NCBI RefSeq assembly: GCF_902459735.1
Contig: NZ_CABPRV010000008.1
Coordinates: 186,001-250,000 of the forward strand
Length of the DNA: 64,000 bases
Origin: Pandoraea capi
GTDB taxonomy: Bacteria; Pseudomonadota; Gammaproteobacteria; Burkholderiales; Burkholderiaceae
Direction of reading: 5' to 3'
This document shows, piece after piece, positions 8,884-24,696 of the stretch. The position numbers and the translations under genes are program-made. Every line of letters starts with the position of its first letter. Position 1 is the first letter of the stretch. The notes under the pieces are model-generated. The model saw only the letters and a list, made by a program, of their open reading frames with translations, had not been told where the DNA came from and searched no databases.

Positions 8884-10044
8884 ATGAAAGTCTTGTCCAT
8901 CTTCGGCACGCGTCCTGAAGCGATCAAGATGGCGCCCCTTGTGAGCGCACTGGATCGCGAACCCGGCATCGACAGCGTGGTATGTGTCACTGGCCAGCAT
9001 CGCCAGATGCTCGATCAGGTGATGTCTCTCTTTGACATCACCGCGAAGTACGATCTGGAAGTCATGGTGCCCAACCAGACGCTCAACGGCCTGTTTTCAC
9101 GGGCCGTGCAGCGAGTCGATGCCGTTCTCGAATCCGAGAAACCCGATTATGTGCTGGTGCATGGCGATACCAGTACCGCATCGGCATGCGCGCTCGCCGC
9201 GTTCCATCGCCGCATTCGCATCGGCCACGTGGAAGCCGGACTGCGAACGGGCGACCTGAGCCAACCCTTTCCTGAAGAAATGAATCGCCGGGTAGTCGAT
9301 GCCGTGGGCGACTGGCTGTTTGCGCCGACCGAGACGTCGCGCGCCAATCTGCAACGCGAGAACCTTCACGGTCGCATCGCGGTGACCGGCAATACGGTGA
9401 TCGACGCCCTGGCCTCGCTCACGGCCCGATTGCGTGACAACTCCCCGCTGGCTTCGGAGATCGCCGCGCGCTACCCGTGGATCGATCCCCGCCGCCGTCT
9501 GCTGCTCGTGACCGGACACCGGCGCGAGAGCTTCGGCGATGGCTTCCGGAACATCTGTGCAGCGCTGGCCGAACTCGCGCGACGCGACGATCTGCAAATC
9601 GTCTATCCCGTGCATCTCAACCCGGCCGTGCGAGACGTCGTCATGACAGAGCTTGCCGGTTTCAACAGCGTGCACCTCATCGACCCGCTCGACTACGTGG
9701 ACTTCGTCTGGTTCATGCAGCGCGCCTACATCATTCTGACGGACTCCGGCGGCGTGCAAGAAGAAGCGCCGTATCTCGGCAAACCGGTACTGGTGATGCG
9801 CGACGTCACCGAGCGACCGGAAGCGGTCGATGCGGGAACCGTGGCGCTGGTGGGCGCGAACCGGGAGCGAATCGTCGCGGGTGTGACCCGTCTGCTCGAC
9901 GATCTCGCGTATCACACGTCGTTCTCAAGACGAATGAATCCGTATGGAGACGGCCACGCGGCAGGCCGTATCGTGGACGCGCTGTGCGGGCGTCCCGTCA
10001 GGGAGTTTTCTCCCGGCAATGCGCAAAGTATCCACGCACGCTGA
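8884..10044 (+). CDS. wecB: UDP-N-acetylglucosamine 2-epimerase (non-hydrolysing)
   Basis: The protein has 386 residues, full length for the family. It interconverts UDP-GlcNAc and UDP-ManNAc in the cytoplasm. Conserved active-site blocks are VLVHGDTSTA, GHVEAGLRTGD, PFPEEMNRR and GHRRESFGDG with H212, which matches the catalytic His213 of E. coli WecB. It is the first gene of a long operon with NfrB/NfrA-type polysaccharide genes. In E. coli the NfrA/NfrB pathway (NGR glycan) depends on WecB, so the sugar supplied here is probably ManNAc. No ManNAcA dehydrogenase (WecC) gene is next to it, arguing against a uronate polymer. Confidence 0.93.
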   Translation: MKVLSIFGTRPEAIKMAPLVSALDREPGIDSVVCVTGQHRQMLDQVMSLFDITAKYDLEVMVPNQTLNGLFSRAVQRVDAVLESEKPDYVLVHGDTSTASACALAAFHRRIRIGHVEAGLRTGDLSQPFPEEMNRRVVDAVGDWLFAPTETSRANLQRENLHGRIAVTGNTVIDALASLTARLRDNSPLASEIAARYPWIDPRRRLLLVTGHRRESFGDGFRNICAALAELARRDDLQIVYPVHLNPAVRDVVMTELAGFNSVHLIDPLDYVDFVWFMQRAYIILTDSGGVQEEAPYLGKPVLVMRDVTERPEAVDAGTVALVGANRERIVAGVTRLLDDLAYHTSFSRRMNPYGDGHAAGRIVDALCGRPVREFSPGNAQSIHAR

Positions 10045-10055
10045 AGGCGGCCGCC

Positions 10056-12455
10056 ATGACACCTGAAACGTCCATGACGCCTACCTCGTGCCCGCTTTCG
10101 AGTCCGCCGGCCTTGCCGACATCGTCCAACTCAGTGTCGTCGCCTGCACGCGGCCGCACGTCTACTCACGGAACACCCATGTTGTTGCCTAACGCCATGC
10201 GTAATCTCAGTGCTTTGCGCGGTCATCCCGCGCGTTTCGGCAGACGCCACAAGACGACGATTTCCGCCATTGCGCTCGGTGCGCTGGTGTTCACGGGTGC
10301 CCTGTGCCCGACGGTGTCGCACGCCAGTGCACTGGGTGACGGCGTGCGCGCGCTGGGCTCGGGGGCCAATCTGACGCGCAGTATCGCGCTGTCGGACCTC
10401 GGTATCCTCGCTCCGGTGGTGCTCTCGGGCGACGCCAGTCAGGAGTTCTATCTGCCGGTTCCCAAGGGTCTGCCGCTGGCCGATGCCTCAGTGGCCTTCG
10501 ACGGTCGCTACCTGAAAGGTGCGCCCGGTGCGGCATCGGTCGTGCTGTCCATCGACGGACAACCGATGACCTCGCAGTCCTTTCCCGATGGCGATGGCCC
10601 CGTTCAGCGCAATCTGGCCGTCTCATCGCGTGCGCGCGACACGGGTTTCGTACGACTCGGCGTGAACTGGCATTCCCGCACGGGAACGTACCGCTGCGAG
10701 CCGGATCACTCGATGGCCAACTCGGTCACGATCTCGCCGCAAACCCGCTTGACCTACCGCATCGACCAGAAGTCGGTGACGAGTCTCGACGACGCCTGGA
10801 GCACCCTGCCCGGCGCGCCCGCGCTGCTCGTGGCTGGCAAGACGCTCGATAAGGACGCCTTCGACAGCGCATGGCGCGTCGGGGTGGCACTCGAGCGTAG
10901 CGGCAAGCGCGTAGTCGTGCGTGCGTTGCCCGCGCTTGGCGATGTCGTCGATACGCGAGGCATCGATGTCCCGGCATCGCTTGCCGGGCTGCCGGCATTC
11001 GCAGCGATCAAGGACAATAGCGCGACCCACAAACTGGCCAACGACGCCGAACTCGGCGCATTGCTGGCCGTCGGGGCGCCGTCCGTCAGCGGTGAAATTG
11101 TCGTGGCTGACGCTGCTTTGCGCACGCGTCTGAGCGCCGCCTTCGACGCGTTGCAAAGTCAGTTTGCCAACGACAGCGATGCCGCCGAGGCTTTCAAGGC
11201 GTGGCGTGCCAATCGCGCCCCGCTGGCGGGTGAAGCACTCGGCGCGAAGCAGATTCGTCTGCTGTCGATGGGCAGCCAGTCCGTGATTGCGATCGCCGGT
11301 GACGCAGGGGCACAGGCTGCCGGGCTTTTCGACGACGCGCTGCGCCGTCTGCTGGTATCGAACAACGTAACGGCACCCATCGCCCACACGCCGGATATCG
11401 AAGACAAGACGGTGGTGCGCCTGTCGAGTCTGGGCGGTTCGGCCGACAGTTTCGACGTACTCGCGCGGGGTGACTGGACGCTAAGCTTCCCGCTCTCCGC
11501 GGTGGCCTCCAGTGGTCGCATGCCGGGCGAAATTTCCCTGTATCTGTCGGCAGCGCCCGGACCGGCGACGTCCAAGCCCGTCGCCACGGTGTTCTGGAAC
11601 GGCATTCTGCTCGCCGCCAAGCAGCTCGACGCCAATGGGCGCCCCGAGCAGCTCAAGGCACGCGTGCCGGGCTACGCTCTGGGGGTGAACAACAATCTGC
11701 GCGTCTCGGTGCAACGCCAACCGTATTCAGCCGACTGCAACGAAATTCCGCAGGCGTATCCGGTCAATGTGCTGCCTGCGGCCAGTTATGTGCGCCCGGG
11801 CAAGGCTGAGCCGGACGGCACGTTCGTGGGTCTGTTGCCGCTCATGGCAGGTGACCCCCAACTGATCGTACCGGCGCGCTACCTTGCTTCCGCCCCCGAA
11901 AACATCAAGCGCGTGATCGGCATTGCGGCAGCGAGCGGCGTGTCTCCTTCGCGAGCGGAACTGACGGTTGCCGCCGGTGACAAGCCGGTCAAGCCGAGCA
12001 AGCCGTTCGTGGCGATGGAAGTGCCGGTCGACGGTGCGACGCCCTCTGCAGTCGTGACGGATCGCAAGCGTCTGGAGATCGGTAACAAGGACGCCAAGTG
12101 GCTCGACATCACTGGCCTGCAACGCCTGTCGACCGCGGAAGTCGTGCGTGGCGGTGGTCAGGACGGCTTGCTCTGGTACGCGATCGGCGAGCCGAAGCCC
12201 GACGTGGGCGTGCCGTTCCTGCTCAATCGCGGCAATCTGGCAATCATAGGACCGGCAGGCCCCGTGGCGTGGATCGACACGAGTAACCCCGACGCGAGCC
12301 TGCCGCCAGGGGCCGGTGAGAGTGCGTTCTACGAATGGCGCCGGTATGTGTCGTGGGGCGTGCCTGCCATTGCTATCGTACTGCTCGTGCTGCTGCTGAT
12401 TCTGGTGCTGGCCTTGCGCGCTGGTCGCAAGAGCAACAGCAAAAGCGATCATTAA
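10056..12455 (+). CDS. BcsB-like periplasmic polysaccharide synthase subunit
   Basis: The protein has 799 residues. Near residues 67-88 is a hydrophobic signal segment ending in TVSHA, and a C-terminal membrane anchor (about 767-788) is followed by a basic tail. This is the architecture of BcsB, the periplasmic partner of cellulose synthase. The family pattern is seen in FYLPVPKGLPLADASV near the start of the mature protein. Despite its old name, the family's c-di-GMP site is on BcsA, not BcsB. The chosen ATG is 12 bases after wecB with GAAGGCGG upstream. Starts at 10179 or 10197 would give a more normal signal peptide and are good alternatives. It probably receives the growing polymer from the glycosyltransferase encoded next. 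Confidence 0.8.
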   Translation: MTPETSMTPTSCPLSSPPALPTSSNSVSSPARGRTSTHGTPMLLPNAMRNLSALRGHPARFGRRHKTTISAIALGALVFTGALCPTVSHASALGDGVRALGSGANLTRSIALSDLGILAPVVLSGDASQEFYLPVPKGLPLADASVAFDGRYLKGAPGAASVVLSIDGQPMTSQSFPDGDGPVQRNLAVSSRARDTGFVRLGVNWHSRTGTYRCEPDHSMANSVTISPQTRLTYRIDQKSVTSLDDAWSTLPGAPALLVAGKTLDKDAFDSAWRVGVALERSGKRVVVRALPALGDVVDTRGIDVPASLAGLPAFAAIKDNSATHKLANDAELGALLAVGAPSVSGEIVVADAALRTRLSAAFDALQSQFANDSDAAEAFKAWRANRAPLAGEALGAKQIRLLSMGSQSVIAIAGDAGAQAAGLFDDALRRLLVSNNVTAPIAHTPDIEDKTVVRLSSLGGSADSFDVLARGDWTLSFPLSAVASSGRMPGEISLYLSAAPGPATSKPVATVFWNGILLAAKQLDANGRPEQLKARVPGYALGVNNNLRVSVQRQPYSADCNEIPQAYPVNVLPAASYVRPGKAEPDGTFVGLLPLMAGDPQLIVPARYLASAPENIKRVIGIAAASGVSPSRAELTVAAGDKPVKPSKPFVAMEVPVDGATPSAVVTDRKRLEIGNKDAKWLDITGLQRLSTAEVVRGGGQDGLLWYAIGEPKPDVGVPFLLNRGNLAIIGPAGPVAWIDTSNPDASLPPGAGESAFYEWRRYVSWGVPAIAIVLLVLLLILVLALRAGRKSNSKSDH

Positions 12456-12474
12456 CGCATAGCGACGATTCGAC

Positions 12475-14181
12475 GTGCTCTCCTCGCTCTATTGGCCATA
12501 TCTGGTCGCCGACTACTACCACGGGCTCGAAATCGCGAGCGCGATCGTCGGCGTCATCATTCTGCTATCGAGTGCCGACGACCTGTTCGTCGACCTCTGG
12601 TACTGGGTGCGTCAGGTCTACCGGTCGCTGTTTATCCGGCGACGCTACACGCCCTTGCAGGCATCGCAGTTACGTGAGGTGCGCGAGCAGCCGCTCGCCA
12701 TCATGGTGCCTGCATGGCTGGAGTACGACGTGATTGCGGCCATGCTCGAGAGCATGGTGGGCACGCTCGAATACAAGAACTACATGATCTTCGTCGGCAC
12801 GTACAAGAACGACGACAAGACCAAGACCGAAGTCGAACGCATGCGTCGGCGCTATCGCCAGCTCGTCCACGTGGGCGTGCCGCACGACGGACCGACCTGC
12901 AAGGCCGATTGTCTGAACTGGATCGTGCAGGCGATCTTCAAGCAGAACCAGTTGCAGCCGGAACCGTTTGCCGGCGTGATTCTGCATGACGGCGAAGACG
13001 TGCTTCACCCGTTGGAGCTGAAGTACTACAACTACCTGCTCCCGCGTATCGACTTCATTCAGTTGCCGGTGACATCGCTTGAGCGTGAGTGGTATGAACT
13101 CGTGGCGGGTACTTACATGGACGAGTTCGCCGAGTGGCACACCAAGGATCTGGTGGTGCGCGAGAGCATGTCGAAGATGGTGCCGTCCGCCGGTGTGGGC
13201 ACGTGTTTCTCTCGCAAAGCGCTTGAAGAGCTTGCCGCCGAGACGAGCAATCAGCCGTTCAATACCGACACGCTGACCGAGGATTACGACATCGGCGCGC
13301 GTCTCGCTCGCAAGGGCATGAAGCAGATTTTCGGCAAGTTCCCTGTCGAGTACGTGACCAAACGCACCTCGGTGTTCGGCTTCGGCAAAGAGAAAATCTC
13401 GACGATTCGCATGCCATTGGGCATTCGCGAATACTTCCCCAATACGTTCAAGACCGCTTATCGACAGAAAGCGCGCTGGACACTCGGTATCGGCCTGCAA
13501 GGTTGGGCACAGGTCGGCTGGCATGGGTCGCTCGCAACGAAGTACCTGCTGTTTCGCGATCGAAAAGGGCTGGCGACGTCGTTCGTCGCGATTCTCGCTT
13601 ATCTGCTGCTGCTCAACTTTCTCGGCTTTCTGATCGCGGATCGCATGGGGTGGTGGACCGTCTATTACCCGTCCGTCTTCCCGCCGAATGGCTGGCTCGT
13701 GACGCTCATGGGCATCAACGCGTTCGCATTGGCGCTGCGCGTGATTCAGCGCAGTTACTTCGTGTATCACATGTACGGCTGGGAGCATGCGTTGCTCGCC
13801 GTGCCGCGCATGGTGATCGGCAACTTCATCAACGCCATGGCGGCCGCGCGCGCGTGGCGGTTGTTCATCGTCCATTTGGTGACGGGCAAGCGTCTGGTCT
13901 GGGACAAGACCATGCACGACTTTCCGACGTCCGATCAACTCACACAGCAGCGTCAGCGTCTGGGCGAATTGCTGATGTCCTGGCAGGCCATCGACGAGAC
14001 CAAGCTCGAATTTGCGCTCGGCGTTCAGGCGCGTGAGGGCCGCCCACTTGGCGAAATCCTCATCGAGCGAGGCTGGCTGGACGAAACCACGCTACGCGAA
14101 GCGATTTCATTCCAGCAAGGTGTGCCGGGTATTCCGGCATCCGACGCGCAACCTCCTAACCCAAGTCACGCGGTCACATGA
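12475..14181 (+). CDS. nfrB: NfrB-type family-2 glycosyltransferase with C-terminal c-di-GMP (MshEN) domain
   Basis: The protein has 568 residues and a GTG start. It follows E. coli NfrB closely through the catalytic region: LAIMVPAWLE, the metal-binding HDGED near residue 170, PSAGVGTCFSR, LTEDYDIG near 267, and RQKARW near 330. One membrane helix precedes the catalytic domain and several follow it. The C terminus carries two MshEN-like repeats, RLGELLMSWQAIDETKLEFAL (about 494-514) and PLGEILIERGWLDETTLREAI (about 523-543). In NfrB this region binds cyclic-di-GMP. The first repeat has Gln where the motif prefers Gly. It is shorter than E. coli NfrB, which has a longer tail. It would polymerise UDP-ManNAc at the inner membrane when c-di-GMP is high. 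Confidence 0.88.
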   Translation: MLSSLYWPYLVADYYHGLEIASAIVGVIILLSSADDLFVDLWYWVRQVYRSLFIRRRYTPLQASQLREVREQPLAIMVPAWLEYDVIAAMLESMVGTLEYKNYMIFVGTYKNDDKTKTEVERMRRRYRQLVHVGVPHDGPTCKADCLNWIVQAIFKQNQLQPEPFAGVILHDGEDVLHPLELKYYNYLLPRIDFIQLPVTSLEREWYELVAGTYMDEFAEWHTKDLVVRESMSKMVPSAGVGTCFSRKALEELAAETSNQPFNTDTLTEDYDIGARLARKGMKQIFGKFPVEYVTKRTSVFGFGKEKISTIRMPLGIREYFPNTFKTAYRQKARWTLGIGLQGWAQVGWHGSLATKYLLFRDRKGLATSFVAILAYLLLLNFLGFLIADRMGWWTVYYPSVFPPNGWLVTLMGINAFALALRVIQRSYFVYHMYGWEHALLAVPRMVIGNFINAMAAARAWRLFIVHLVTGKRLVWDKTMHDFPTSDQLTQQRQRLGELLMSWQAIDETKLEFALGVQAREGRPLGEILIERGWLDETTLREAISFQQGVPGIPASDAQPPNPSHAVT

Positions 14182-16418
14182 CGTTCTTCTCCCGTTCTCT
14201 TTGCTGCGCCGCCGTGCTGGCAAGTCTCTCAGCCGGTGCGGTTGCGGCACCTGTGAGCGCAGCGCGCGTCGAAGCGCCGCTCGAGGGGGAGGCATGGCAA
14301 TTCGGGGACGCCGCCTTCAAGGCATACAACCGCAAAGACTACGCAGGCGCCGAAGCGCAGGCCGCGAAAGCGCTGGCGTTGCGCCCGGACGTGACGCGAC
14401 TCTGGTTGCTTCGCATCTACGCGTTGCAGAACATGGGACGTACCCGGCAAGCGCTCGACATCACGGATCAGGCGCTCGCACAGGGGCACCACGACCCGGC
14501 GCTGAACGCGGCGCGCACGAATTTGCGCGCGGCACTCACGCCCGCGACGGCGGGCAAGAACGGGCGTGGCGAGAGCGGGACGATGCAATCGCCCGCGTAT
14601 CGGGCGGGCGACGCTGCGTACAAGGCGTATGCGTCTGGCCGCTATGACGAAGCCGAACGCAATGCACGCGAATCGTTGCGCCTTGCGCCGCAAAACCCGG
14701 ACATGCGAAGCCTGCTTCTTTATTCTCTTGAGCGTCAGGACAAGGTGCAGGAAGCCGCAGATGAGGCCGATGCCGCGCTGCGTCTCACGCCCGGGGACGA
14801 ATCGCTTCAGGCGTTGCGTGATCGCATGCATCGCCGTCTGGCGCCGGCGCCTGCGATGGCCGCCTGGAATGCGTATCGCGACGGCGACTACGCCAAAGCC
14901 GCCGGTCTGGCACGTGAGGCGGTGGGGCAAGCGCCCGACGTTCAGAGCTACCGCTACCTGCTCACTGGCGCATTGCTTAGTGAAGGCCTCTACGCACAGG
15001 CTGACGCCGCCGCATCAGATGCACTCTCGCAGGACGGCGAAGACGCCCTTTCGCTTGCGATGCGCGGCTTCGCGCGTCAGAAGCTGAATCGTCCGGCCGA
15101 CGCGGGGAAGGATCTCGACAAGGCCGAGGCTCAGGACTGGCTGTCCGAACAGCAGCTCTCAACCGTCAAGCGGATTGCGGCGGACACGCGACGTCCCGCA
15201 GACACAAGACGCGCACGCAGTCCGGCCGACGAAGCCCCGGTGGTGTTCTGCACGCCCGACGCGCAGGACGTGTTGTGCAGTCTCCTGCCTGCCGGTTCCA
15301 GCCTCGCCGGCGCGGGCCCCGGGTACGAGGCCGCGTCGCAGGCCTACGCGTCGATGGCAAAGCAGGATTACCGCGCGGCGGCCAAATCGGCTCACGAAGC
15401 CCTCGACGCCGCGCCCGACAATCTCTCTTATCGCTTGTTGCTCGTCAATGCGCTGAGTCTGGCGGGCGACAGGCAAGCCGCTCGCGAAGCCTACGCGCCG
15501 ATTGCGGCACCGGGCAGCGAGGTGCCGCCCGAGAGCCTGCTCGACGCAGCCTATAGCGCACAGCGTCTCTACGACAACAAACAGGCAAGCGGCTGGTTCT
15601 CGCGCGCTATCGATGCCAACGACGAGGGCAAGATCGAGCTTGAGCCACAAGCGCGTCAGAACGTGCGTCAGGCCGTGTCGGATCTGGACCGTACCTGGGG
15701 ATTCAACGCCGCGCTCGGTTACGGCACCGTGGGCGTCATGAACTCGGCGTTCTCGCCGTCGCTAAGTGCGCGCAAGACGTTGCAGTCGTCGGAAGAACTG
15801 TACTGGCGCCCGCCGGTGATCGGCAATCGGGACGGCAGTACGTTCGAGCTGTATGCGCGCCTCAATCAGGCGCTGTACGACGGCACGGGGGGCGTGACCG
15901 GGCTCTCGACCAATCAGGGCGTGCTCGGTGCGCGCTGGAAACCGTTCAGCCGCCAGAATTTCGTGTTCGCCGTGGAGAAATTCGTGCCGCTGGGTAGCAA
16001 CAGTCGAACGGACTGGCTGCTGCGTGCGGCGTGGTCGGAGGGTGAAGGCGGGAGTTTGCGCGTAGACAAGTCGAACTGGCAATACTGGCAGGTGTACGCC
16101 GAAGGCGACTATTTCATCGATCATCCGCAGACGCTTGGCACGGCCGAGGCTCGCTATGGCCGCGCGTTCCGCATGGACGGTATCAACAGCAATCTTGTGC
16201 TCACGCCGTATCTCGGCGCGACAGTCGGTTTCGACAGCTTGCTCGCGCAGCGCTTCACGATGGGAGTTGGCCCCGGCGTGACCGCGCGCTGGTGGTTCCG
16301 CGAAGACAAGTATCACGCGCAGCAATCGTTCGTCGACCTGAACGTGCAATACCGCGTGAGCATTGCCGGCGCCGACCGCTCGCAGGGCATTTTCGCCGGA
16401 CTCTATTTTTCTTACTGA
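14178..16418 (+). CDS. nfrA: NfrA-like outer-membrane exporter with TPR repeats and beta-barrel
   Basis: The protein has 746 residues with a signal peptide of about 23 and then at least four TPR-like repeats (for example AWQFGDAAFKAYNRKDYAGA and YRAGDAAYKAYASGRYDEAE). The last 250 or so residues look like an outer-membrane barrel ending in FAGLYFSY, the terminal aromatic pattern of barrel proteins. This is the layout of NfrA and of other polysaccharide secretins such as BcsC and PgaA: periplasmic TPR scaffold followed by an export pore. Its ATG overlaps the glycosyltransferase stop (ATGA), so the pair is translationally coupled. In E. coli, NfrA exports the glycan used by phage N4 as receptor. 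Confidence 0.85.
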   Translation: MTFFSRSLCCAAVLASLSAGAVAAPVSAARVEAPLEGEAWQFGDAAFKAYNRKDYAGAEAQAAKALALRPDVTRLWLLRIYALQNMGRTRQALDITDQALAQGHHDPALNAARTNLRAALTPATAGKNGRGESGTMQSPAYRAGDAAYKAYASGRYDEAERNARESLRLAPQNPDMRSLLLYSLERQDKVQEAADEADAALRLTPGDESLQALRDRMHRRLAPAPAMAAWNAYRDGDYAKAAGLAREAVGQAPDVQSYRYLLTGALLSEGLYAQADAAASDALSQDGEDALSLAMRGFARQKLNRPADAGKDLDKAEAQDWLSEQQLSTVKRIAADTRRPADTRRARSPADEAPVVFCTPDAQDVLCSLLPAGSSLAGAGPGYEAASQAYASMAKQDYRAAAKSAHEALDAAPDNLSYRLLLVNALSLAGDRQAAREAYAPIAAPGSEVPPESLLDAAYSAQRLYDNKQASGWFSRAIDANDEGKIELEPQARQNVRQAVSDLDRTWGFNAALGYGTVGVMNSAFSPSLSARKTLQSSEELYWRPPVIGNRDGSTFELYARLNQALYDGTGGVTGLSTNQGVLGARWKPFSRQNFVFAVEKFVPLGSNSRTDWLLRAAWSEGEGGSLRVDKSNWQYWQVYAEGDYFIDHPQTLGTAEARYGRAFRMDGINSNLVLTPYLGATVGFDSLLAQRFTMGVGPGVTARWWFREDKYHAQQSFVDLNVQYRVSIAGADRSQGIFAGLYFSY

Positions 16419-16425
16419 CGACGTG

Positions 16426-17145
16426 ATGACGCATACGCTCTCATTCCTCAAACGGGTATCGCGCGCCGGTTCAACGCTGGCCGTCGTAGGGCTGGCGACG
16501 CTGGCATTGCCGGGCGTGCCCGCGCATGCCGCCCCTGCCGACGATATCTCGAAACTGTACGGGTTACCGCCTGACGGTTCTTCGTACGTTCGCGTGCTCA
16601 ACACGAGCAACACGGCGCTCAGCGTGCAATTGGGCGCAGGCGCGAAGGCCGAATCGCTCGCTGCGAACGCCAGAATCGTGTCCGATTACCGAGTGCTACC
16701 GGGCGGTCAGGCATATGCCATCAAGGTCAATGGCCACCCGGTGATCGTCGACGGCAAGGCACCCAAGGGCGGCTTTGTCACACTGGTGATCGACGGTGCG
16801 AAACCGAATGCGCCGGTTAAGGCCATCGTTGACGAAAGCCCGGCTGCCGACGGCTTGAAAGCCGAGTTGGCGGCCTACAATCTCGTGCCCGGATGTACGG
16901 CAAAGATCGGCGTGGCGAATGGGCCCACCGTGTTTCCGGGGATTGCCGACGGGGCTCGCGTCGCGCGAGCCATCAATCCGGTGTCGGCCTCGCTCGTGGG
17001 GGAATGCGCGGGGCACGCCTCGGTAGCGCTGGCGTTGCCGCCGCTCAAAGGCGGCGACCGCTACAGCCTCTTCCTCGTGGGAACGGCCGAATCGCCCGCG
17101 CTGGTCGGCGCGACAAATCGGACTCAGCCTTACCGTGCGAACTGA
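16426..17145 (+). CDS. AlgF-like periplasmic polysaccharide O-acylation protein
   Basis: The product has 239 residues with a signal peptide of about 32 (ending PAHA). The mature part begins DDISKLYGLPPDGSSYVRVLN, which mirrors the LYGP...GSTFVRVYN opening of Pseudomonas AlgF. A second AlgF-like stretch is ARAINPVSASLVGECAG, compared with the INPVKVNL segment of AlgF. AlgF links the membrane acyl exporter AlgI to the transferases AlgJ and AlgX during alginate acetylation. The neighbouring AlgJ/X-like and MBOAT genes fit that role. It is longer than AlgF itself by some 25 residues. A GTG three bases upstream is an alternative start. Confidence 0.72.
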   Translation: MTHTLSFLKRVSRAGSTLAVVGLATLALPGVPAHAAPADDISKLYGLPPDGSSYVRVLNTSNTALSVQLGAGAKAESLAANARIVSDYRVLPGGQAYAIKVNGHPVIVDGKAPKGGFVTLVIDGAKPNAPVKAIVDESPAADGLKAELAAYNLVPGCTAKIGVANGPTVFPGIADGARVARAINPVSASLVGECAGHASVALALPPLKGGDRYSLFLVGTAESPALVGATNRTQPYRAN

Positions 17146-17267
17146 GACGTCCACCGACACATCAGCCGGCACTCGAACCTGGCACGCCGACACGGGTGCC
17201 GCAAGAACACGTGAAACCATCGTCGGGCGTCATCACCGGAGCCTGACCTTCGATCATCGCAAGCCTC

Positions 17268-18251
17268 ATGAAACTGAACGCTGAATTCCCGCAATTTGCC
17301 CGCAAGCTGGTGGCTGGCCTGTTGGTCGCGGGCGTCTGTTTGTCCGCCACGAGTGCCCAGGCCCAAGCGGTACTCATCGGGAAAGACGACTGGTTGTTCT
17401 ACGCACAGGACAACATGACCGATGCGGGCCGCGCCGGCATCGACAACTCTGTGAGTCTGATGCGCTCGGCGCGCGATGCGCTACAGGCGAAGGGCATCGG
17501 TCTGGTCGTGGTCGTGGCACCGCTCAAGGCGCGTTTCTACGAAGACAAATTGCCCGCCGGTACGACAATAGCGCCGGCCGTGCGCGATCGCTATGCTCAG
17601 ATGATCGATAGCCTGCGCCGTGCGGATATCCAGACGGTCGATCTGATGCCCGTGCTCAAGAGCGTGGAGCACGACAACCAGACCGCGTTTCTTCAGAAGG
17701 ATTCACACTGGACCGCATGGAGTGCCGAGGCAGCGGCGGCGGCAACGGCCGACGTCATCAAGAAACACTGGACGCTGACCGGTCAGCCCGGCACGGGCAA
17801 GAAGCTGGGCAACTGGATCAAGGAGCGTCGCTTCGCCGACTTCGCCGAGTTGATGACGGCGGCGCAACGCAAGAGCGTGGGACAGGAAATCTACGTGGTG
17901 CGCTCGACCAAGGCCGATGAGGGTGGCCTGCTCGACGACACGGCGTCGCCGGTGCACGTGGTGGGCAACAGCTTCGTTCAACCGTACCTTGGCTTTCCTC
18001 AGGCGCTGTCGGCCGACATCGATCGTCCGGTGGGCCTCACCTGGAAGTACGGCAACTTCGGCCCATGGGCAGTGTTCGCGCAGTACCTCGAATCACCGGC
18101 ATTTCAGCAGGCGCGCCCGCAGGTGGTGGTGTGGCAGCTCAACGAAGTCCAGATGCTCTACGGCCCGAACACGAGTGGTCAATGGGACGCGGCATCCCTC
18201 ATGACCGATGCCGCGTGGCGCGAACGCGTCGCAGCCGCGATTGCCAAGTGA
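17268..18251 (+). CDS. AlgJ/AlgX-like SGNH-type polysaccharide acyltransferase
   Basis: The protein has 327 residues with a signal peptide of about 33. Its catalytic residues appear as D145 and H147 (KDSHW) and S235 (VVGNSF). That order and spacing match AlgX of P. aeruginosa (D174, H176, S269), where the triad is circularly permuted relative to ordinary SGNH enzymes. The segment IGKDDWLFY near residue 38 is typical of the family. It would transfer an acyl group to the polymer in the periplasm. A second, different copy follows 8 bases downstream. Confidence 0.82.
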   Translation: MKLNAEFPQFARKLVAGLLVAGVCLSATSAQAQAVLIGKDDWLFYAQDNMTDAGRAGIDNSVSLMRSARDALQAKGIGLVVVVAPLKARFYEDKLPAGTTIAPAVRDRYAQMIDSLRRADIQTVDLMPVLKSVEHDNQTAFLQKDSHWTAWSAEAAAAATADVIKKHWTLTGQPGTGKKLGNWIKERRFADFAELMTAAQRKSVGQEIYVVRSTKADEGGLLDDTASPVHVVGNSFVQPYLGFPQALSADIDRPVGLTWKYGNFGPWAVFAQYLESPAFQQARPQVVVWQLNEVQMLYGPNTSGQWDAASLMTDAAWRERVAAAIAK

Positions 18252-18258
18252 CGCCCCC

Positions 18259-19416
18259 ATGAGCTTACCGATGTCATCGCCACAGGCTGTGGCGACACCC
18301 CCCACAGTCACTTCGCATCGCTTGACGGCCCTGTGTTTCGCGCTGTTGATGGTGCTCGGACTGATCTACGGCGTGTGCGAGTCAGCAAGGGCTGGGCTTG
18401 GCGAATACGCACCGACGGCATGGCTGGACGGCACGGCGGGCAAGCGTCTCGATACCACGCTCGCGTTGCCGTATCGCGAGACGGCAGAAACGGCCGACGC
18501 CGCGTGGCGCTATCGCCTGCTGGGGCAGCTCGGCACGCAAGTTCAGCAGGGTTGTCCCGGTTGGCTGTTCTACACCGACGGCCTGCGTGCGCCGGTTGCC
18601 GACGTACACGCTGTCGTCAACGCGCGCATTGCGCTGATGCGACGCCTCACGGCGCAGTTGCGCGCCGAGAATATTCAGGTGCTGGCAGTCACCGTGCCGG
18701 ACAAGTCGCGCATTGCCGCCAACGCGTTGTGCGGCATGACGCGCCCGGCCGATACCATCATGGGCCTCGCGCAGTGGCAACGTGCGCTCGACGCCGCAGG
18801 GGTGGCGCACGTGGATCTGTCCACCGTGCTCGCACCGATGCCCGACGCGTTCTATCGCACGGATGTGCACATGAACCAGCGCGGCGCCGCCGTGGCGGCT
18901 CAGGCCGTTGCAAAAGCGGCGCTGCCTTTGGTCGGTGCGCGCGGACCGTTGCGCTACGACGTCTCTCGCGCCCCACACGCCTCACCGCGTGTTGGCGACC
19001 TGCTGGTGTTGGCCGGCCTTGGCAAGGCACCTGACGGTTGGCGTCCCCCGCCCGACAACTACGTGCAGGAGACATTCACGTTGCCCGCGAGTGGCGGCTT
19101 GCTCGACGACGGCCCGCCGATCGAGGTGTTGCTCGCCGGGAGTTCGAACTCGCGTCGCAGCAACTTCGCCGAGCAGTTGGGGCAGTCACTGGGACAGCCC
19201 GTCTGGAACGAGAGTCGCGACGGCGGCAAGTTTGCTGATGCCCTCGTCCAGGCCATGCAGGATCGCGCGCGCTGGCCCAGGAGCCTGAAGCTGGTGATCT
19301 GGGAGATGTCGGAGATGTCGTTGCTCCAGCCCCTCACCGAACAGGAAAAGGCATTGCTGAACACCCGCCCGAACGCGCAAGTGGTGGCCTCGAAGGCTGG
19401 CGGGGCCGGACGCTGA
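18259..19416 (+). CDS. Second AlgJ/AlgX-like acyltransferase, membrane-anchored
   Basis: The product has 385 residues with one N-terminal membrane helix (about residues 22-40) that has no clear cleavage site, as in AlgJ. A likely triad is D202 and H204 (RTDVHMNQRG) with S296 (LLAGSSNS). The segment CPGWLFYTDGLR near residue 100 matches the family. A longer start exists upstream, but this ATG sits 8 bases after the previous gene. With a secreted-type and an anchored-type copy side by side, the pair resembles the AlgJ plus AlgX division of labour: one relay and one final transferase. Confidence 0.8.
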   Translation: MSLPMSSPQAVATPPTVTSHRLTALCFALLMVLGLIYGVCESARAGLGEYAPTAWLDGTAGKRLDTTLALPYRETAETADAAWRYRLLGQLGTQVQQGCPGWLFYTDGLRAPVADVHAVVNARIALMRRLTAQLRAENIQVLAVTVPDKSRIAANALCGMTRPADTIMGLAQWQRALDAAGVAHVDLSTVLAPMPDAFYRTDVHMNQRGAAVAAQAVAKAALPLVGARGPLRYDVSRAPHASPRVGDLLVLAGLGKAPDGWRPPPDNYVQETFTLPASGGLLDDGPPIEVLLAGSSNSRRSNFAEQLGQSLGQPVWNESRDGGKFADALVQAMQDRARWPRSLKLVIWEMSEMSLLQPLTEQEKALLNTRPNAQVVASKAGGAGR

Positions 19417-19460
19417 CGTTGTGACGACGCGCACGTCATTTTTTTACGGGACATACGCCC

Positions 19461-21359
19461 ATGCCGGAACTGAACTGGTTGCCTCGCTCGCCCGACTGGG
19501 CGAAGCAAGTGGATGCATTACCCAAAGACACCGCGCCCGCATGGCACGAACTGGTTCGGCTCGCCAACGAGAATCTGGACTTCGTGCAGACCGGGAAGCT
19601 CGACAAACGCCTGCAAAAAGCCTATGGCACGCAGCCGCCAGCCGATCTGACGAGCCCACAGGTGCGTCTGGCCCTACTCGGTTCGTCGACCATGGATCAC
19701 CTGCTGCCGGGCCTGAGAGTCGGCGCACTGCGCCGCAATCTCTGGGTGCAGACCTATGTGCCGGACTACGGTCAGTATCTGCGCGAAACGCTCGATCCGT
19801 CGTCCGGTCTGTACGCGTTCGCGCCGAACGTCGCGCTGTGCGCCTTCGACTCCCAGCACCTGATCGGCAGTGAAACCGCCGCGCTGAGCGCTGCACAGGC
19901 CGACGAGAAGATCGCCGCCGCCATCGACAATCTTCGTGCGTTGTGGCGTCGCTTGCGCGAGAACCTCGGTGCGCACGTCATTCAGCAAACCCTGATGCCC
20001 GCGCAAGTGGCGCTCATGGGCAACAACGAACAACGCATGCCGGGCTCGGCGCGCTGGCTCACGCATCGTCTGAACGACGCCCTGCGTCAGGCGGCAGACG
20101 AGGCCGGTGTCGATATTCTGGCGCTCGATGATGCTTGTGAACAGGATGGCGTGAGCGCATGGCACGATCCGCGCCTGTGGCTGCGCGCGAAGCAATACGT
20201 CACCCCTGCCGCTGCGCCCGCCTACGGCGATCTGGTAGCACGACTCGTCACGGCGCGCCGGGGCGGCAGCGCCAAGTGTCTGGTACTCGATCTCGACAAT
20301 ACGCTGTGGGGCGGCGTGATCGGCGACGATGGACTGGCCGGCATCGTGCTCGGACAGGGCAATGGCGAGGGCGAAGCGTTTGCCGCGTTCCAGCGCTATG
20401 CACGCGATCTGACGCGTCGCGGGGTGATCCTCGCCGTGTGCTCCAAGAACGACGAAACCAACGCGCTGGAGCCGTTTCTCTCGCATCCCGAGATGGTGCT
20501 CCGGCGCGACGACATCGCGTGTTTCGTCGCGAACTGGCAGGACAAGGCGAGCAACCTGCGCGCGATAGCGTCGCAACTCAACATCGGCCTCGACGCCCTG
20601 GTGTTTGCCGACGACAACCCGTTCGAGCGCAACCTCGTTCGCCGCGAACTGCCGATGGTGAAGGTGCCGGAGATGCCGGAAGATCCGGCCTTGTACGCAT
20701 CAACCGTCGCCCGTGGCGGCTATTTCGAAGGCGTGACGTTGACCGCAGAGGACCGCGAGCGCGCCGGACAGTATCAGGCCAACTTGCAGCGCGAAGCGCT
20801 GCGTACCAGTCAAAAGGATCTGGCGTCCTATCTGGCGAGCTTGCAGATGGTGCTCGAATGGAACGTGTTCAACGCCACCGATCTGCCGCGCATCGTGCAA
20901 CTGATGGGCAAGACGAATCAGTTCAACCTGACGACGCGCCGTCATACGGAAGACGAGGTGCAGGAGATGATGCGCGATCCGCGTGCCGTGCTGTTGCACT
21001 TCCGTCTGAAGGACAGCTTCGGCGACAACGGCATCATTGCGGTCATTGCCGCACTGCCGGACACGGCGGAGGCACCGGGCGACTGGCGCATCGACACGTG
21101 GCTGATGAGCTGCCGGGTGCTTGGGCGCGAAGTCGAGCCGGCCACGCTCGGCGTGCTCGTCGCGCAGGCACGTGCGGCCGGGGCCAGACGCCTGATCGGC
21201 GAGTATATTCCGAGCGCGAAGAACGGCATGGTCAAGGACCATTATCGAAACCTCGGATTTTCGCCGTTTGCCGAACATGAGAACGCCACCGAATGGGTGC
21301 TGGACCTTGGCGACTTCTCTTCACAAATAGCACCCATGGAAATCAGGAGCATGCAATGA
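19461..21359 (+). CDS. FkbH-like HAD-superfamily enzyme (acyl-ACP loading)
   Basis: The protein has 632 residues. The HAD motif KCLVLDLDNTLWGGVIGDDG places the nucleophile pair at D277 and D279. Later HAD elements are CSKNDE and VFADDNPFERN. An N-terminal region of about 260 residues precedes the HAD domain, and a GNAT-like region ends the protein (IGEYIPSAKNGMVKDHYRNL). Characterised FkbH enzymes take 1,3-bisphosphoglycerate and load a glyceryl unit on a carrier protein. The next gene, overlapping its stop codon, encodes an acyl carrier protein. In this operon the unit is probably destined for the exopolysaccharide; the acyl identity is inference. Confidence 0.82.
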   Translation: MPELNWLPRSPDWAKQVDALPKDTAPAWHELVRLANENLDFVQTGKLDKRLQKAYGTQPPADLTSPQVRLALLGSSTMDHLLPGLRVGALRRNLWVQTYVPDYGQYLRETLDPSSGLYAFAPNVALCAFDSQHLIGSETAALSAAQADEKIAAAIDNLRALWRRLRENLGAHVIQQTLMPAQVALMGNNEQRMPGSARWLTHRLNDALRQAADEAGVDILALDDACEQDGVSAWHDPRLWLRAKQYVTPAAAPAYGDLVARLVTARRGGSAKCLVLDLDNTLWGGVIGDDGLAGIVLGQGNGEGEAFAAFQRYARDLTRRGVILAVCSKNDETNALEPFLSHPEMVLRRDDIACFVANWQDKASNLRAIASQLNIGLDALVFADDNPFERNLVRRELPMVKVPEMPEDPALYASTVARGGYFEGVTLTAEDRERAGQYQANLQREALRTSQKDLASYLASLQMVLEWNVFNATDLPRIVQLMGKTNQFNLTTRRHTEDEVQEMMRDPRAVLLHFRLKDSFGDNGIIAVIAALPDTAEAPGDWRIDTWLMSCRVLGREVEPATLGVLVAQARAAGARRLIGEYIPSAKNGMVKDHYRNLGFSPFAEHENATEWVLDLGDFSSQIAPMEIRSMQ

Positions 21360-21607
21360 CCGACACCGAAATCCTCAACGCGCTGACCGACATTTTTCGC
21401 GACATCTTCGACGACGACACCGTGGTAATCACGCCGCAATCGTCGGCCGCCGATTTCGATGCCTGGGACTCCCTCTCCAACGTCAACATCATGGTCGCGA
21501 CCGAGATGCGCTTTGGCGTGCGTTTCAAGACGTCGGAAGTCGAAGGACTGAAGAACGTCGGCGAACTCATGGCGCTGATCAGAAAACAACTGGCCGCCAA
21601 GGGCTGA
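21356..21607 (+). CDS. Acyl carrier protein
   Basis: The product has 83 residues. The phosphopantetheine attachment serine is in the block AWDSLSNVNIM, about residue 40, within a helical carrier fold. The start ATG overlaps the upstream TGA and has CAGGAG upstream. Because it is coupled to the FkbH-like gene, it is the likely recipient of that enzyme's acyl unit. It may hand the unit to the MBOAT encoded next, as DltC does for DltB in teichoic acid alanylation. Confidence 0.88.
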   Translation: MTDTEILNALTDIFRDIFDDDTVVITPQSSAADFDAWDSLSNVNIMVATEMRFGVRFKTSEVEGLKNVGELMALIRKQLAAKG

Positions 21608-21657
21608 TCGCGCATTCACCGTAAAGTCTTGCGACTTTTTGACACAGATTCCCCGGT

Positions 21658-23250
21658 ATGCTGTTCAACTCCCTGCCGTTTCTCCTGCTGTTCCTGCCCA
21701 TCTCGCTGGGTGGGTATTACCTCGCGGGAGCGTTGCGCCCCATCGCGGCCGCCGCATGGCTGTGCATCGCCTCGCTGGTGTTCTATAGCTGGTGGAACCC
21801 GGTGTTCGTAACATTGCTGCTCGGGTCCATCGCGTTCAACTACGTCGTGAGCCTGGGCATTCTGTCGACGGAAAATCGCCCTCGTCTGCAATCGTGGTTG
21901 CTTGCGGGGGGCATCGTCGCGAATCTCGGGCTGCTGTTCTACTACAAGTATCTTGTCGCGCTGCTCGATTTTCTCGCAGGGTTTGGTCTCGTGTCGCACA
22001 GCGTGAGCGAAATGATCCTGCCGCTCGGGATCTCGTTCTTCACGTTCACACAACTGGGTTTTCTGCTCGATTGCCGTGCGGGCGTGGTACGCGAACGAAG
22101 CTTCGTGAGCTATGTGCTGTTCGTCACGTTCTTCCCGCATTTGATCGCGGGACCGATTCTGCATCACAAGGAAATGATGCCGCAGTTCGCCGACCGTGAG
22201 AGTTACCGGTTCAAGGCGGAGAATCTGTCGATCGGTGCGACGTTGTTCATTATCGGTCTGGCCAAGAAGGTCCTGCTCGCGGACAGCATCGCGCCGTGGG
22301 CCGAGGCGGGCTTCAACGCGCCTGGCGAGTTGCAGTTCATGGCCGCGTGGGGCACGGCGCTGGCGTATGCGCTGCAACTGTATTTCGATTTCTCGGGGTA
22401 TTCGGACATGGCGATGGGGCTGGCGAAGATGTTCGGCATTCGCTTCCCGCTCAACTTCAATTCGCCTTACAAGTCCACCGGCATCATCGAGTTCTGGACA
22501 CGCTTTCACATGACGCTCACGCGTTATCTGACGGCGTATCTCTACAACCCTGTCGCGATGACGATCACGCGGGCGCGCGCTCGCAAAGGGCTTTCCGTGG
22601 GTCGAAAGGCCACGGCGACCGCCCGCGGCTTCGGCAGCATGATCCTGTTCCCGACGGTCTTCACGATGGGGCTTGCCGGTATCTGGCACGGTGCGGGGCT
22701 CCAGTTCCTTATCTTCGGCTTGCTGCATGGAGTCTATCTCAGCGTGAATCACGCATGGCGGCTGTTCGGGCCGAATCGCACGCAACCGGCGACCGGGTGG
22801 CGTCGCGCCGCCTATGTCGTGTTGACGTTCCTCTGTGTGGTGTTCGCGCTGTTGTTCTTCCGCGCACACAGTACGCACGATGCTTTCACGCTGATCGGTA
22901 GCATGCTCGGCCTGAAGGGTCTCGAATCGCTCGCACCGATGCTGTATCCGCTGCAAGCGCTCACGCACGCAGACCCGAGCTGGACGGCGGGCGACCTGAT
23001 GCGTCTGTTTGTCGAGCGATGGAGCCAGGGCCTGCTGATCCTCGGGATGCTCGTGGTGGTGTGGTGTGCACCGAACTCCAATCAGATCATGAACGTGTAT
23101 TCACCCGCACTGGAAGGACCGGCGCCGGGCGCGCCGCGCTGGTTGCAATGGCGCCCAACGCTTGCGTGGACTGTCCTGTCCATGGGGGTGCTGGCCTACG
23201 CTGCGCTCAATCTGCACAAGACCGCCCGCTTCCTTTACTTCCAGTTCTGA
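21658..23250 (+). CDS. MBOAT-family membrane acyltransferase (AlgI/DltB-like)
   Basis: This is a 530-residue inner-membrane protein with about ten to twelve hydrophobic helices. The MBOAT histidine region reads GIWHGAGLQFLIFGLLHG near residue 342. Other family markers are PLGISFFTFTQLGFLLD, FFPHLIAGPI and DFSGYSDMA. It would carry an acyl group across the inner membrane for the AlgF/J/X-like proteins encoded upstream. The donor may be acyl-ACP because an ACP gene precedes it by 50 bases. The alternative is acetyl-CoA, as generally assumed for AlgI. Confidence 0.9.
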   Translation: MLFNSLPFLLLFLPISLGGYYLAGALRPIAAAAWLCIASLVFYSWWNPVFVTLLLGSIAFNYVVSLGILSTENRPRLQSWLLAGGIVANLGLLFYYKYLVALLDFLAGFGLVSHSVSEMILPLGISFFTFTQLGFLLDCRAGVVRERSFVSYVLFVTFFPHLIAGPILHHKEMMPQFADRESYRFKAENLSIGATLFIIGLAKKVLLADSIAPWAEAGFNAPGELQFMAAWGTALAYALQLYFDFSGYSDMAMGLAKMFGIRFPLNFNSPYKSTGIIEFWTRFHMTLTRYLTAYLYNPVAMTITRARARKGLSVGRKATATARGFGSMILFPTVFTMGLAGIWHGAGLQFLIFGLLHGVYLSVNHAWRLFGPNRTQPATGWRRAAYVVLTFLCVVFALLFFRAHSTHDAFTLIGSMLGLKGLESLAPMLYPLQALTHADPSWTAGDLMRLFVERWSQGLLILGMLVVVWCAPNSNQIMNVYSPALEGPAPGAPRWLQWRPTLAWTVLSMGVLAYAALNLHKTARFLYFQF

Positions 23251-23258
23251 GCCAGATC

Positions 23259-23666
23259 ATGTTGACTGCCCTGGGTTGCACTTTTCACCATATCGGGATC
23301 GCGTGTCGCGATCTCGATGCCGAGCAAGCGTACTGGGAAGTTCTGGGTTACTCGCTGGAGTCGCCGGAATTCGAAGACCCGATCCAGCGCGTGCGTGGCC
23401 GCTTTCTGACGGGCCCCGGCCCGCGCCTCGAACTCCTCGCACCGAGCGCAGAGGGGTCGCCCGTCGAAGGCGTGCTAAAACGTCGGACCAAGATGTATCA
23501 TCAGGCGTTCGAGACCCGCGAGTTCGATCGCGCGCTCGCGGCGCTGGAAGACACAGGCGCACGGCGCACCGCGGATCCTGCCCCGGCCATCGCCTTCGGC
23601 GGGCGCCGCATCGTCTTTCTGTTTCTGCCCAACGGAAACATTGTCGAGATCGTGGAAGCCGCCTGA
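23259..23666 (+). CDS. VOC-superfamily (glyoxalase/methylmalonyl-CoA epimerase-like) protein
   Basis: The product has 135 residues built from two beta-alpha-beta modules. It opens with CTFHHIGIACRDLDAEQAYW, which carries the first metal-ligand histidine, and has a second set at YHQAFETREFD and GNIVEIVE. This matches methylmalonyl-CoA epimerase-like VOC proteins. It starts 8 bases after the MBOAT gene and is the last gene of the operon. A role in isomerising or editing the acyl group held on the carrier protein is possible but is inference only. Confidence 0.75.
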   Translation: MLTALGCTFHHIGIACRDLDAEQAYWEVLGYSLESPEFEDPIQRVRGRFLTGPGPRLELLAPSAEGSPVEGVLKRRTKMYHQAFETREFDRALAALEDTGARRTADPAPAIAFGGRRIVFLFLPNGNIVEIVEAA

Positions 23667-23709: not shown

Positions 23710-24696
23710 TCAACGCATCGACGATTGCCAATGACGCAGCAGCGCGTGCGCTTGCGGCGTATCGCCGAGCACCCAGGGATCAATTGCGAACGCGATCACC
23801 CGTTGGGCGCCGTATTCGCTCGCGATGTCCCACTGCTTTTGAATGCGTGAAAAGCTGGCTGCGTGTGCCTTGAAGTCGACGCCGTCCTTCTTGCCGTCGG
23901 GAGCGCTCTGGAACAACTCCAGAATGAGATCGAACTTCGTGCCGCGTGAGACGAATAGCGTGCGCAGCGGCGCAAGCACAGCGTAGTTCTCGATGCCCCA
24001 TTCCCCTACGCCGTCCTGAACCATCGGATAGACGTCGACGCGATCGAGCAGCGTGCGCCACATCTCCTGCAACCCCCCCGGCCCGGGGATATGACTGTAG
24101 AACGTGGATATGGTCGGTGCGCGCCCGCAGGTGTCATGCGAGAGCTTCGACAGCGTGCCAAGCCATGCGGCGAGCTTGTCGAGCCGTGCGGGGTCGGACC
24201 AACTATATTGCTCAAGCTCATACGGCAGGTACCATCCCCGGAACGCGGGATGACGGGACAGCGCAGCATTGCGCAGGGCGACGGCGGCGCGCTCGTACGC
24301 GTCGCGCATGTAACTGTCGAGCACACTCGCATCGGTGCTGCCAAGCACGGACCACCAGCGCTCGTCGTATGGCACCCCCAAATGTACCCCGATACCCTGC
24401 GCGTGGCACTCGTCGAGCAACCGCGTAAGAAAAGCGGGGGATGCCTGCCATTCGTTCGCCGTATTGCCGCTGAGCGCGATCCACTGGACGAATATCTCCT
24501 GACAGCCCAGTGCACGCGTCATGGCGATGCGCGCTCGCCATTGCTCGCCCCCCCAATCCAGATGCTCGCGCCACAATTGCAGAAACGTGCCACCGATGCC
24601 CATCCGGGTATCACAGGCGACCAACGGCAGACACGTGGCGAGCGCGGCGGCGCGTAACAACCGTCGACGCATCGGAGAGTCGGGAAGCGCAGACAT
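23710..24696 (-). CDS. Lipoprotein of glycoside-hydrolase-like type (DUF4434-like TIM barrel)
   Basis: The protein has 328 residues with a lipobox (LPLVAC, Cys about residue 28), so it is a probable outer-membrane lipoprotein. The fold markers are those of DUF4434-like barrels: GGTFLQLWREH, IFVQWIAL, the strand GWYLPYELEQYSW with an acidic residue, and a late FDLILELFQ strand with a second glutamate. These acidic residues could be the hydrolase pair. A start eight codons later (MRRRLLRAA) is also possible. It is convergent with the exopolysaccharide operon, 43 bases from its end, and may trim or release that polymer. The substrate is inferred from position only. Confidence 0.65.
   Translation of the reverse strand: MSALPDSPMRRRLLRAAALATCLPLVACDTRMGIGGTFLQLWREHLDWGGEQWRARIAMTRALGCQEIFVQWIALSGNTANEWQASPAFLTRLLDECHAQGIGVHLGVPYDERWWSVLGSTDASVLDSYMRDAYERAAVALRNAALSRHPAFRGWYLPYELEQYSWSDPARLDKLAAWLGTLSKLSHDTCGRAPTISTFYSHIPGPGGLQEMWRTLLDRVDVYPMVQDGVGEWGIENYAVLAPLRTLFVSRGTKFDLILELFQSAPDGKKDGVDFKAHAASFSRIQKQWDIASEYGAQRVIAFAIDPWVLGDTPQAHALLRHWQSSMR

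Follow-up and report, generated by a model that had tools for sequence, protein, structure and literature searches.

An NGR-Type Operon with an Acylation Module in Pandoraea

A window of 64,000 nucleotides from Pandoraea capi (contig NZ_CABPRV010000008.1, positions 186,001 to 250,000) includes eleven head-to-tail genes on the plus strand at 8884-23666, and their protein families identify them as an N4 glycan receptor (NGR)-type (Nfr) exopolysaccharide operon. The operon carries an acylation module that looks fed by a carrier protein and not of the AlgI type, and glycerate is the predicted acyl group. Within the genus Pandoraea, synthase lineages have traded the exporter gene nfrA, the acylation module and the gene for a YbcH homologue as a single cassette, whose junction lies at the nfrB end. 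The explanation as a whole, an NGR operon with glyceroylation by MBOAT and SGNH proteins supplied by FkbH and an acyl carrier protein (ACP), together with cassette exchange, is considered probable, with some reserve.

The sequence-only reading of this window had described an NGR-like operon of eleven tightly packed genes with a cyclic di-GMP (c-di-GMP)-type synthase, an exporter, wecB as the first gene and its own acylation module. All eleven genes were recovered, and profiles named every product except the BcsB-like subunit (Table 1). WecB scores 469 bits against TIGR00236, and the AlgF, two AlgX, FkbH, ACP, MBOAT and VOC proteins match the profiles given in Table 1. The intergenic distances range from -4 to 50 bp, except that algF and the first algX-like gene lie 122 bp apart, and the ACP gene overlaps fkbH by 4 bp.

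The description as NGR-like is borne out by wecB, the YbcH homologue and the NfrA-type exporter, and by a glycosyltransferase of the NfrB family that carries an MshEN domain. The glycosyltransferase is 43% identical to Escherichia coli NfrB over 539 aa and scores 569 bits against the NfrB equivalog NF008411, under the cut-off of 1170. It is without the C-terminal extension of about 180 residues found in E. coli NfrB. The MshEN domain at residues 495-547 (NF053729, 55.5 bits with the cut-off 38) by itself suggests c-di-GMP control of the synthase; L496 and G497 align with L490 and G491 of E. coli NfrB, which are reported as residues altered in published mutants. The exporter is 26% identical to E. 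coli NfrA in the C-terminal part only, and reaches only 58 of 1223 bits against the phage-receptor equivalog NF007302.

Profile searches placed the glycosyltransferase and the TPR protein in the NfrB and NfrA families, and neither of the two other assignments named in the earlier reading, cellulose and poly-N-acetylglucosamine (PNAG), held. A PNAG (Pga) synthase was rejected with 24 bits for PgaC TIGR03937 against the cut-off of 422, and a cellulose (Bcs) synthase was rejected because the glycosyltransferase falls in the NfrB family and the BcsB-like subunit is the only shared part. The BcsB-like assignment held for the family and not for the window protein, which on its own matches PF03170 at E = 0.09, under the cut-off, while 12 of the 15 aligned members of its family (A3) match at E up to 1, the best at 4.5e-12. 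Among solved structures, this protein had no significant match (one at E 0.39).

The convergent YbcH gene goes beyond the earlier claims, as do the carrier-fed (FkbH/ACP) module and the two swappable cassettes in the genus. The YbcH homologue aligns with 25% identity over 186 residues to its E. coli counterpart (E = 1e-9) and scores 59.8 bits against NF007404, under the cut-off of 344. A lipobox-like LVAC follows its signal sequence. Two Glu residues with a spacing of 100, E160 and E260 in the numbering of the window protein, are invariant in 15 of 15 DUF4434 proteins including E. coli YbcH. Against solved structures, the DUF4434 profile matched the putative fucosidase 4h41 with an E-value of 9e-5, and an endoglucanase with an E-value of 0.16, which is not significant. 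It is a reasonable guess that the YbcH homologue is a glycoside hydrolase acting on the polymer. E. coli YbcH is labelled a putative scaffold in PMC8669469; from the invariant Glu pair and the likeness to glycoside hydrolases, it may be an enzyme. A DUF4434/YbcH protein with the two invariant Glu residues is also encoded at L084:1592-2482.

Predicted Carrier Feed and Catalytic Residues

Catalytic residues were counted in 19 nfr operons classed as carrier-fed, and the FkbH motifs in the five operons of the FkbH type (type A). Both AlgX-like SGNH proteins keep the catalytic D, H and S in all 19, and so do the MBOAT its His and Tyr, the ACP the Ser at the modified position, and NfrB the Asp pair of the first motif and QxxRW; TEDYDI of NfrB is kept in 18. 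The FkbH motifs DLDNTLWGG and MSCR are present in 5 of 5. The window operon thereby has the features of an FkbH pair that makes glyceryl-ACP: the HAD motif, the conserved Cys, which we take to be the acyl-enzyme site, and a stand-alone ACP.

The MBOAT scores 174 bits against DltB TIGR04091, under the cut-off of 375, and its best match among solved structures is DltB 6bug (E 1.4e-26). F-x-Y-x-x-F is found at the end of 59 of 60 MBOATs, as FLYFQF in the window. It is the acyl-Tyr motif shown by experiment in PatA, where the Tyr is acetylated, and corresponds to the Tyr site of DltX (PMC12148441). The window ACP reaches 17 of 68 bits against DltC. The whole genome of 5.85 Mb yields a single MBOAT match and a single FkbH match at E <= 1e-20, and a contribution of other FkbH copies was therefore rejected. 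The FkbH-ACP pair, the DltB-like MBOAT, the fused motif and the kept catalytic residues together predict that the exported polymer is O-glyceroylated. An architecture in which a carrier feeds the acylation of an nfr polymer is quite likely, and glycerate is the favored acyl group with less confidence.

In the proposed pathway, WecB would provide UDP-N-acetylmannosamine (UDP-ManNAc), which would make N-acetylmannosamine (ManNAc) the sugar of the polymer. NfrB, activated by c-di-GMP via MshEN, would polymerize the sugar across the inner membrane with the BcsB-like periplasmic subunit, and NfrA would export the polymer. During export, the polymer would be O-acylated by a carrier-protein-fed MBOAT/SGNH relay: FkbH would charge the dedicated ACP with the glyceryl unit, drawn from 1,3-bisphosphoglycerate; the MBOAT would bring this unit across the membrane to the Tyr in its C-terminal motif; and the AlgX-like SGNH proteins, aided by AlgF, would then transfer it to the sugar. 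A possible role of the VOC protein is to epimerize the glyceryl thioester. In sister species, a DltA-like ligase, not FkbH, would load the same relay.

AlgI-type acetylation was set aside as the first choice because of the conserved carrier. In such a system, the MBOAT would use acetyl-CoA, as is assumed for AlgI, WssH or PatA, while FkbH and the ACP would serve the synthesis of some unrelated small molecule. Acetylation systems typically include AlgF and AlgX-like partners, the nfr locus L047 outside the genus combines MBOAT/AlgX/AlgF, with no ACP found in it by tblastn, and Junkermeier and Hengge write of acetyltransferase machinery (PMC8669469). However, all 14 nfr operons found in the genus come with an ACP and a loading enzyme, the latter of two unrelated kinds, FkbH, ACP and MBOAT occur together in at least 45 of the best 80 FkbH loci, and DltB, the best solved relative of the MBOAT, is a carrier-fed enzyme. 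Conventional O-acetylation is considered rather improbable.

Two Cassette Types and Their Exchange

The genus survey covered 32 Pandoraea genomes, the one of the window and 31 others. nfrB was found in 14 of them and full-length fkbH in 4. The operons of the 14 nfrB-bearing genomes are divided into four of type A, with the gene order as in the window, and ten of the DltA type (type B). The type B WecB, BcsB-like and NfrB proteins are 77-91% identical to those of the window, while NfrA differs, with about 30% identity. Identity is 43-51% for the AlgX-like proteins, 58-60% for the MBOAT and 39-43% for AlgF; the ACP is a different one, and a DltA-like ligase is present instead of FkbH and VOC. 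The MBOAT DNA is alignable between the window and type B at 71-74% (three comparisons), and thus the cassettes are old relatives. YbcH homologues are 72-81% identical to that of the window within type A and 51-58% between types. Since the NfrA and YbcH types follow the cassette type, export, decoration and YbcH behave as one unit that is distinct from the synthase.

The type B ligase of L036 scores 327 bits against DltA (cut-off 476); among solved structures, DltA 3e7w matches it best. The DltA segment FMFCGEVL is aligned to FVFGAESL, and the pocket Cys of DltA, whose role is our assumption, is thereby replaced by Gly; the amino acid of this ligase may be other than D-alanine. The window operon has no DltA-type ligase, and the best match to a type B ligase elsewhere in the genome is 33% identical.

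Trees were compared for the same 18 operons, with the WecB, BcsB-like and NfrB proteins for the synthase and AlgX1, AlgX2, MBOAT and AlgF for the cassette. The cassette tree has one type change (support 100/100). The synthase tree has five, against a mean of 4.6 in shuffles; the well-supported branches alone require at least 4. In this tree, the window synthase groups most closely with the type B synthase of L037 (100/99). The DNA identity of the window to type B is about 80-82% through nfrB and ends at 14124-14140 in 3 of 3 comparisons, before the nfrB stop at 14181. Type A and type B operons also stand behind the same flank, in the pair L039/L041 (97.6% over 1,879 bp) and in the pair L035/L036 (94.6% over 1,876 bp). 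Escape from phages or from immune recognition would be a reason for such a swap.

It is very improbable that the module serves another polymer, such as lipopolysaccharide or capsule, and merely adjoins nfr. A terminator-like site between algX2 and fkbH speaks for this separation, but the module follows nfrB-nfrA in all 18 operons of the cassette tree, its type tracks the NfrA and YbcH types, and its MBOAT is the only MBOAT match of the genome.

Opposing Observations and Other Acyl Units

Several observations weigh against glyceroylation of a ManNAc polymer and against the exchange at the nfrB end. The best solved matches of the VOC protein are named glyoxalase-I and lactoylglutathione lyase (E 4e-16), not epimerase; methylmalonyl-CoA epimerases come next (E 7e-8), and the epimerase TIGR03081 is the best NCBIfam model (E 5e-14, under the cut-off). 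VOC proteins were found in only 8 of the 80 FkbH loci. With these two results, VOC as a proven epimerase partner was rejected and kept as a suggestion. All 7 VOC proteins aligned from FkbH loci retain the four likely metal ligands, residues that we presume to bind the metal. The MBOATs of the two cassettes are as similar as stated above despite their differing predicted donors, and the donor specificity is therefore unreadable from the MBOAT. In the published work, ManNAc in the nfr polymer is a proposal of the authors, and the chemistry is known for no nfr polymer. Elsewhere, the neighbors of FkbH include MaoC-SDR fusions (L057 and L087) and an SDR (L165), which suggest further reactions on the ACP-bound unit.

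The neighbors in these three loci favor a variant in which the same carrier-fed relay transfers an acyl group other than plain glycerate, either because FkbH and VOC or housekeeping enzymes convert the C3 unit or because FkbH takes another phosphorylated acid. The VOC protein, closest to glyoxalase-I and methylmalonyl-CoA epimerase, would be an extra catalyst for it. The window operon, however, encodes neither a dehydratase nor a reductase, and the FkbH motifs are intact in all five type A operons. This variant is considered unlikely, and plain glycerate is preferred.

As for the transcript, a terminator-like stem with seven T at 19421-19446, between algX2 and fkbH, might place the donor genes on partly separate transcripts. 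T-runs are seen at this site in L035 and L039 and not in L034, that is, in two of the three other Pandoraea type A operons. Terminator-like sites are not enriched in the region (14, against 13.0 in shuffles), and no promoter-like site was found.

As for the exchange, the synthase genes are only 79-84% identical in L039/L041 and L035/L036, below the identity of the flank, and thus the whole operon was probably replaced there. The junction at the nfrB end accordingly rests on the tree conflict and the similarity breakpoint. The flanks of the window are unlike those of the other 13 operons, except for 312 bp at 70% next to wecB.

Distribution beyond Pandoraea

Outside the genus, 22 nfrB loci were obtained from surveys of relatives (101 genomes) and of the order (399 genomes), and acyl genes were sought in them by tblastn with the window and L036 proteins. 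Type B modules were found in four (L048, L071, L072 and L073), with the ACP and the ligase of L073 on the opposite strand. L047 is the locus with MBOAT/AlgX/AlgF beside nfr and an undetected carrier. No acyl genes were found by tblastn in 17 of the 22 stretches, where divergent ones could be missed. A type A operon with VOC and YbcH is present in an Alcaligenaceae bacterium (L086).

NfrB in the carrier-fed operons of Pandoraea, L071-L073 and L086 stops after one MshEN domain, with a length of 565-585 aa. It is 660-890 aa long in most module-less operons and also in L047 and L048, and 480-540 aa long in the module-less L056, L077 and L081.

An FkbH search of named genomes gave at least 582 relatives, and the best 80 of them were analyzed; many of these stretches end at contig ends. 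An ACP was found in 73 of the 80 loci, and ACP and MBOAT in at least 45. The contig-end cuts and MBOAT pieces found by tblastn in two further loci, L100 and L161, make 45 a lower bound. Two of the 45 are nfr operons (L085 and L086). In seven of the 80, none of the four partners sought was found in the stretch covered. In a tree of 59 MBOAT proteins, the nfr-linked types A and B cluster (83/99, under the strict threshold), and the other MBOATs linked to FkbH fall elsewhere. This suggests a change of loading enzyme in an nfr system that retained its MBOAT.

On pSymB of the model symbiont Sinorhizobium meliloti (L166:4981-10860), VOC, MBOAT, a protein without Pfam hit, ACP and FkbH are encoded in a row, a handy laboratory case for the FkbH-ACP-MBOAT chemistry. 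A similar set of ACP, FkbH, MBOAT and VOC is found on a Rhodobacteraceae plasmid. FkbH and ACP are encoded near the MaoC-SDR fusions at L057:7967-11585 (minus strand) and L087:9986-17867, and near the SDR at L165:8983-13463; possibly a different acyl unit is made there on the same carrier. At L058:9372-13663, beside flagellar genes, FkbH, ACP, an Antibiotic_NAT-family acetyltransferase, VOC and a methyltransferase constitute a candidate set for a glyceryl-type modification of flagellin glycan.

Operon Layout

The features of the operon and its convergent neighbor are collected in Table 1.

Table 1. Genes of the Pandoraea capi operon and the adjoining YbcH gene, in window coordinates.
Feature	Position	Strand	Evidence
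wecB, UDP-GlcNAc 2-epimerase (makes UDP-ManNAc)	8884..10044	+	TIGR00236 468.6 bits, PF02350 398 bits
BcsB-like subunit	10056..12455	+	PF03170 via family alignment A3; signal sequence and C-terminal membrane helix, by eye
nfrB-like processive glycosyltransferase	12475..14181	+	NF012033 924 bits; C-terminal MshEN c-di-GMP domain, NF053729
nfrA-like TPR and outer-membrane exporter	14178..16418	+	PF13283 NfrA_C 189 bits, TPRs
algF-like periplasmic adaptor	16426..17145	+	PF11182 53 bits
AlgX/AlgJ-like SGNH acyltransferase 1	17268..18251	+	PF16822 227 bits
AlgX/AlgJ-like SGNH acyltransferase 2	18259..19416	+	PF16822 208 bits
FkbH, predicted glyceryl-ACP synthase (1,3-bisphosphoglycerate to ACP)	19461..21359	+	TIGR01686 305 bits
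Dedicated acyl carrier protein	21356..21607	+	PF00550 21.8 bits, cut-off 20.8
DltB-like MBOAT, C-terminal FLYFQF acyl-shuttle motif	21658..23250	+	PF03062 70 bits; TIGR04091 DltB 174 bits
VOC protein, glyoxalase-I/methylmalonyl-CoA-epimerase type	23259..23666	+	PF13669 60 bits
YbcH homologue (DUF4434)	23710..24696	-	PF14488 183 bits; lipobox-like signal sequence, glycoside-hydrolase-like features

Elsewhere in the genome of the window, at G000:C6:115157-158160, two frames, 9469 and 4610 aa long, contain repeated adenylation domains and indicate a large cluster like those of nonribosomal peptide synthetases.

Comparison with Known Systems

nfrB homologues have been reported from 406 species beyond E. 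coli, and the linkage to wecB was noted (Junkermeier and Hengge 2021, PMC8669469). The same paper describes, for Simplicispira suum, genes resembling those of the alginate acetyltransferase that lie within the nfr cluster. An acyl module in an nfr operon as such is therefore not new, and the remark of the sequence-only reading that no description of such a module was known for this polymer is only partly right. The S. suum cluster, compared by description only, shares the acylation genes inside the nfr cluster, while a carrier protein, FkbH and a DltA-like ligase are unmentioned in the passage that describes it (PMC8669469). What looks new is the carrier-fed rather than AlgI-type module, and the swapping of the export and decoration cassette.

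The E. coli NGR system (NfrBA-YbcH; PMC8669469, PMC8669472) has the NfrB glycosyltransferase with MshEN, the NfrA exporter, WecB and YbcH in common with the window operon. It differs in the C-terminal extension of NfrB and in its exporter, similar in the C-terminal part only, and nfrBA-ybcH of E. coli K-12 has cusS and envY as neighbors, where no BcsB-like subunit or acyl module is annotated. The MBOAT, SGNH and AlgF parts of alginate AlgIJFX and cellulose WssHIFG are present in the window operon, whereas those systems are taken to use acyl-CoA without a carrier (PMC12148441), and FkbH and ACP are the predicted donor supply here. The window operon resembles Dlt in the carrier protein feeding a DltB-like MBOAT, in the acyl-Tyr motif, and in the DltA-like ligase of the sister cassette. 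It has, in contrast to Dlt, FkbH for the ligase, the motif fused to the MBOAT for the DltX peptide, AlgX-like SGNH proteins for DltD, and a polysaccharide for teichoic acid. The operons for glycerate utilization in polyketide synthesis share FkbH and the stand-alone ACP; their product goes to a tetronate or methoxymalonyl unit, whereas here it would reach an exported polymer via the MBOAT.

MBOAT/SGNH pathways other than Dlt are stated in PMC12148441 to have no carrier protein, and the window module, contrary to this rule, combines a fused acyl-Tyr motif and a carrier. In the open-access literature, no report was found for NfrB with Pandoraea, nothing relevant for NfrB with acyl carrier protein among the matches listed, and, for FkbH together with MBOAT, only PMC10143770, on peptide biosynthesis, among the matches listed. 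MBOAT genes are described in another kind of exopolysaccharide cluster (PMC3684757). Gellan carries a glycerate substituent (PMC6796983), and no gene for it was among the open-access literature matches listed.

Implications

If true, a carrier-fed glycerate or aminoacyl module breaks the rule that MBOAT/SGNH systems other than Dlt have no carrier (PMC12148441), and it is a concrete chemical prediction for NGR-type glycans. Glycerate substituents of bacterial polysaccharides may have a source in the recurring FkbH-ACP-MBOAT set. The chances appear about even that acyl decoration of this c-di-GMP-controlled glycan is a modular, recombined trait, in which one synthase is combined with aminoacyl (DltA-like) or glycerate (FkbH) cassettes, and that FkbH-ACP-MBOAT is a widespread, undescribed route of glyceroylation. 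The swap would then be like a serotype switch, concerning a glycan of the phage-receptor type and its exporter. NGR-type glycans are receptors of phage N4 in E. coli. The cassette exchange means that export and decoration of the glycan evolved as a unit, apart from the synthase, and the surface chemistry of these bacteria may be changing with it.

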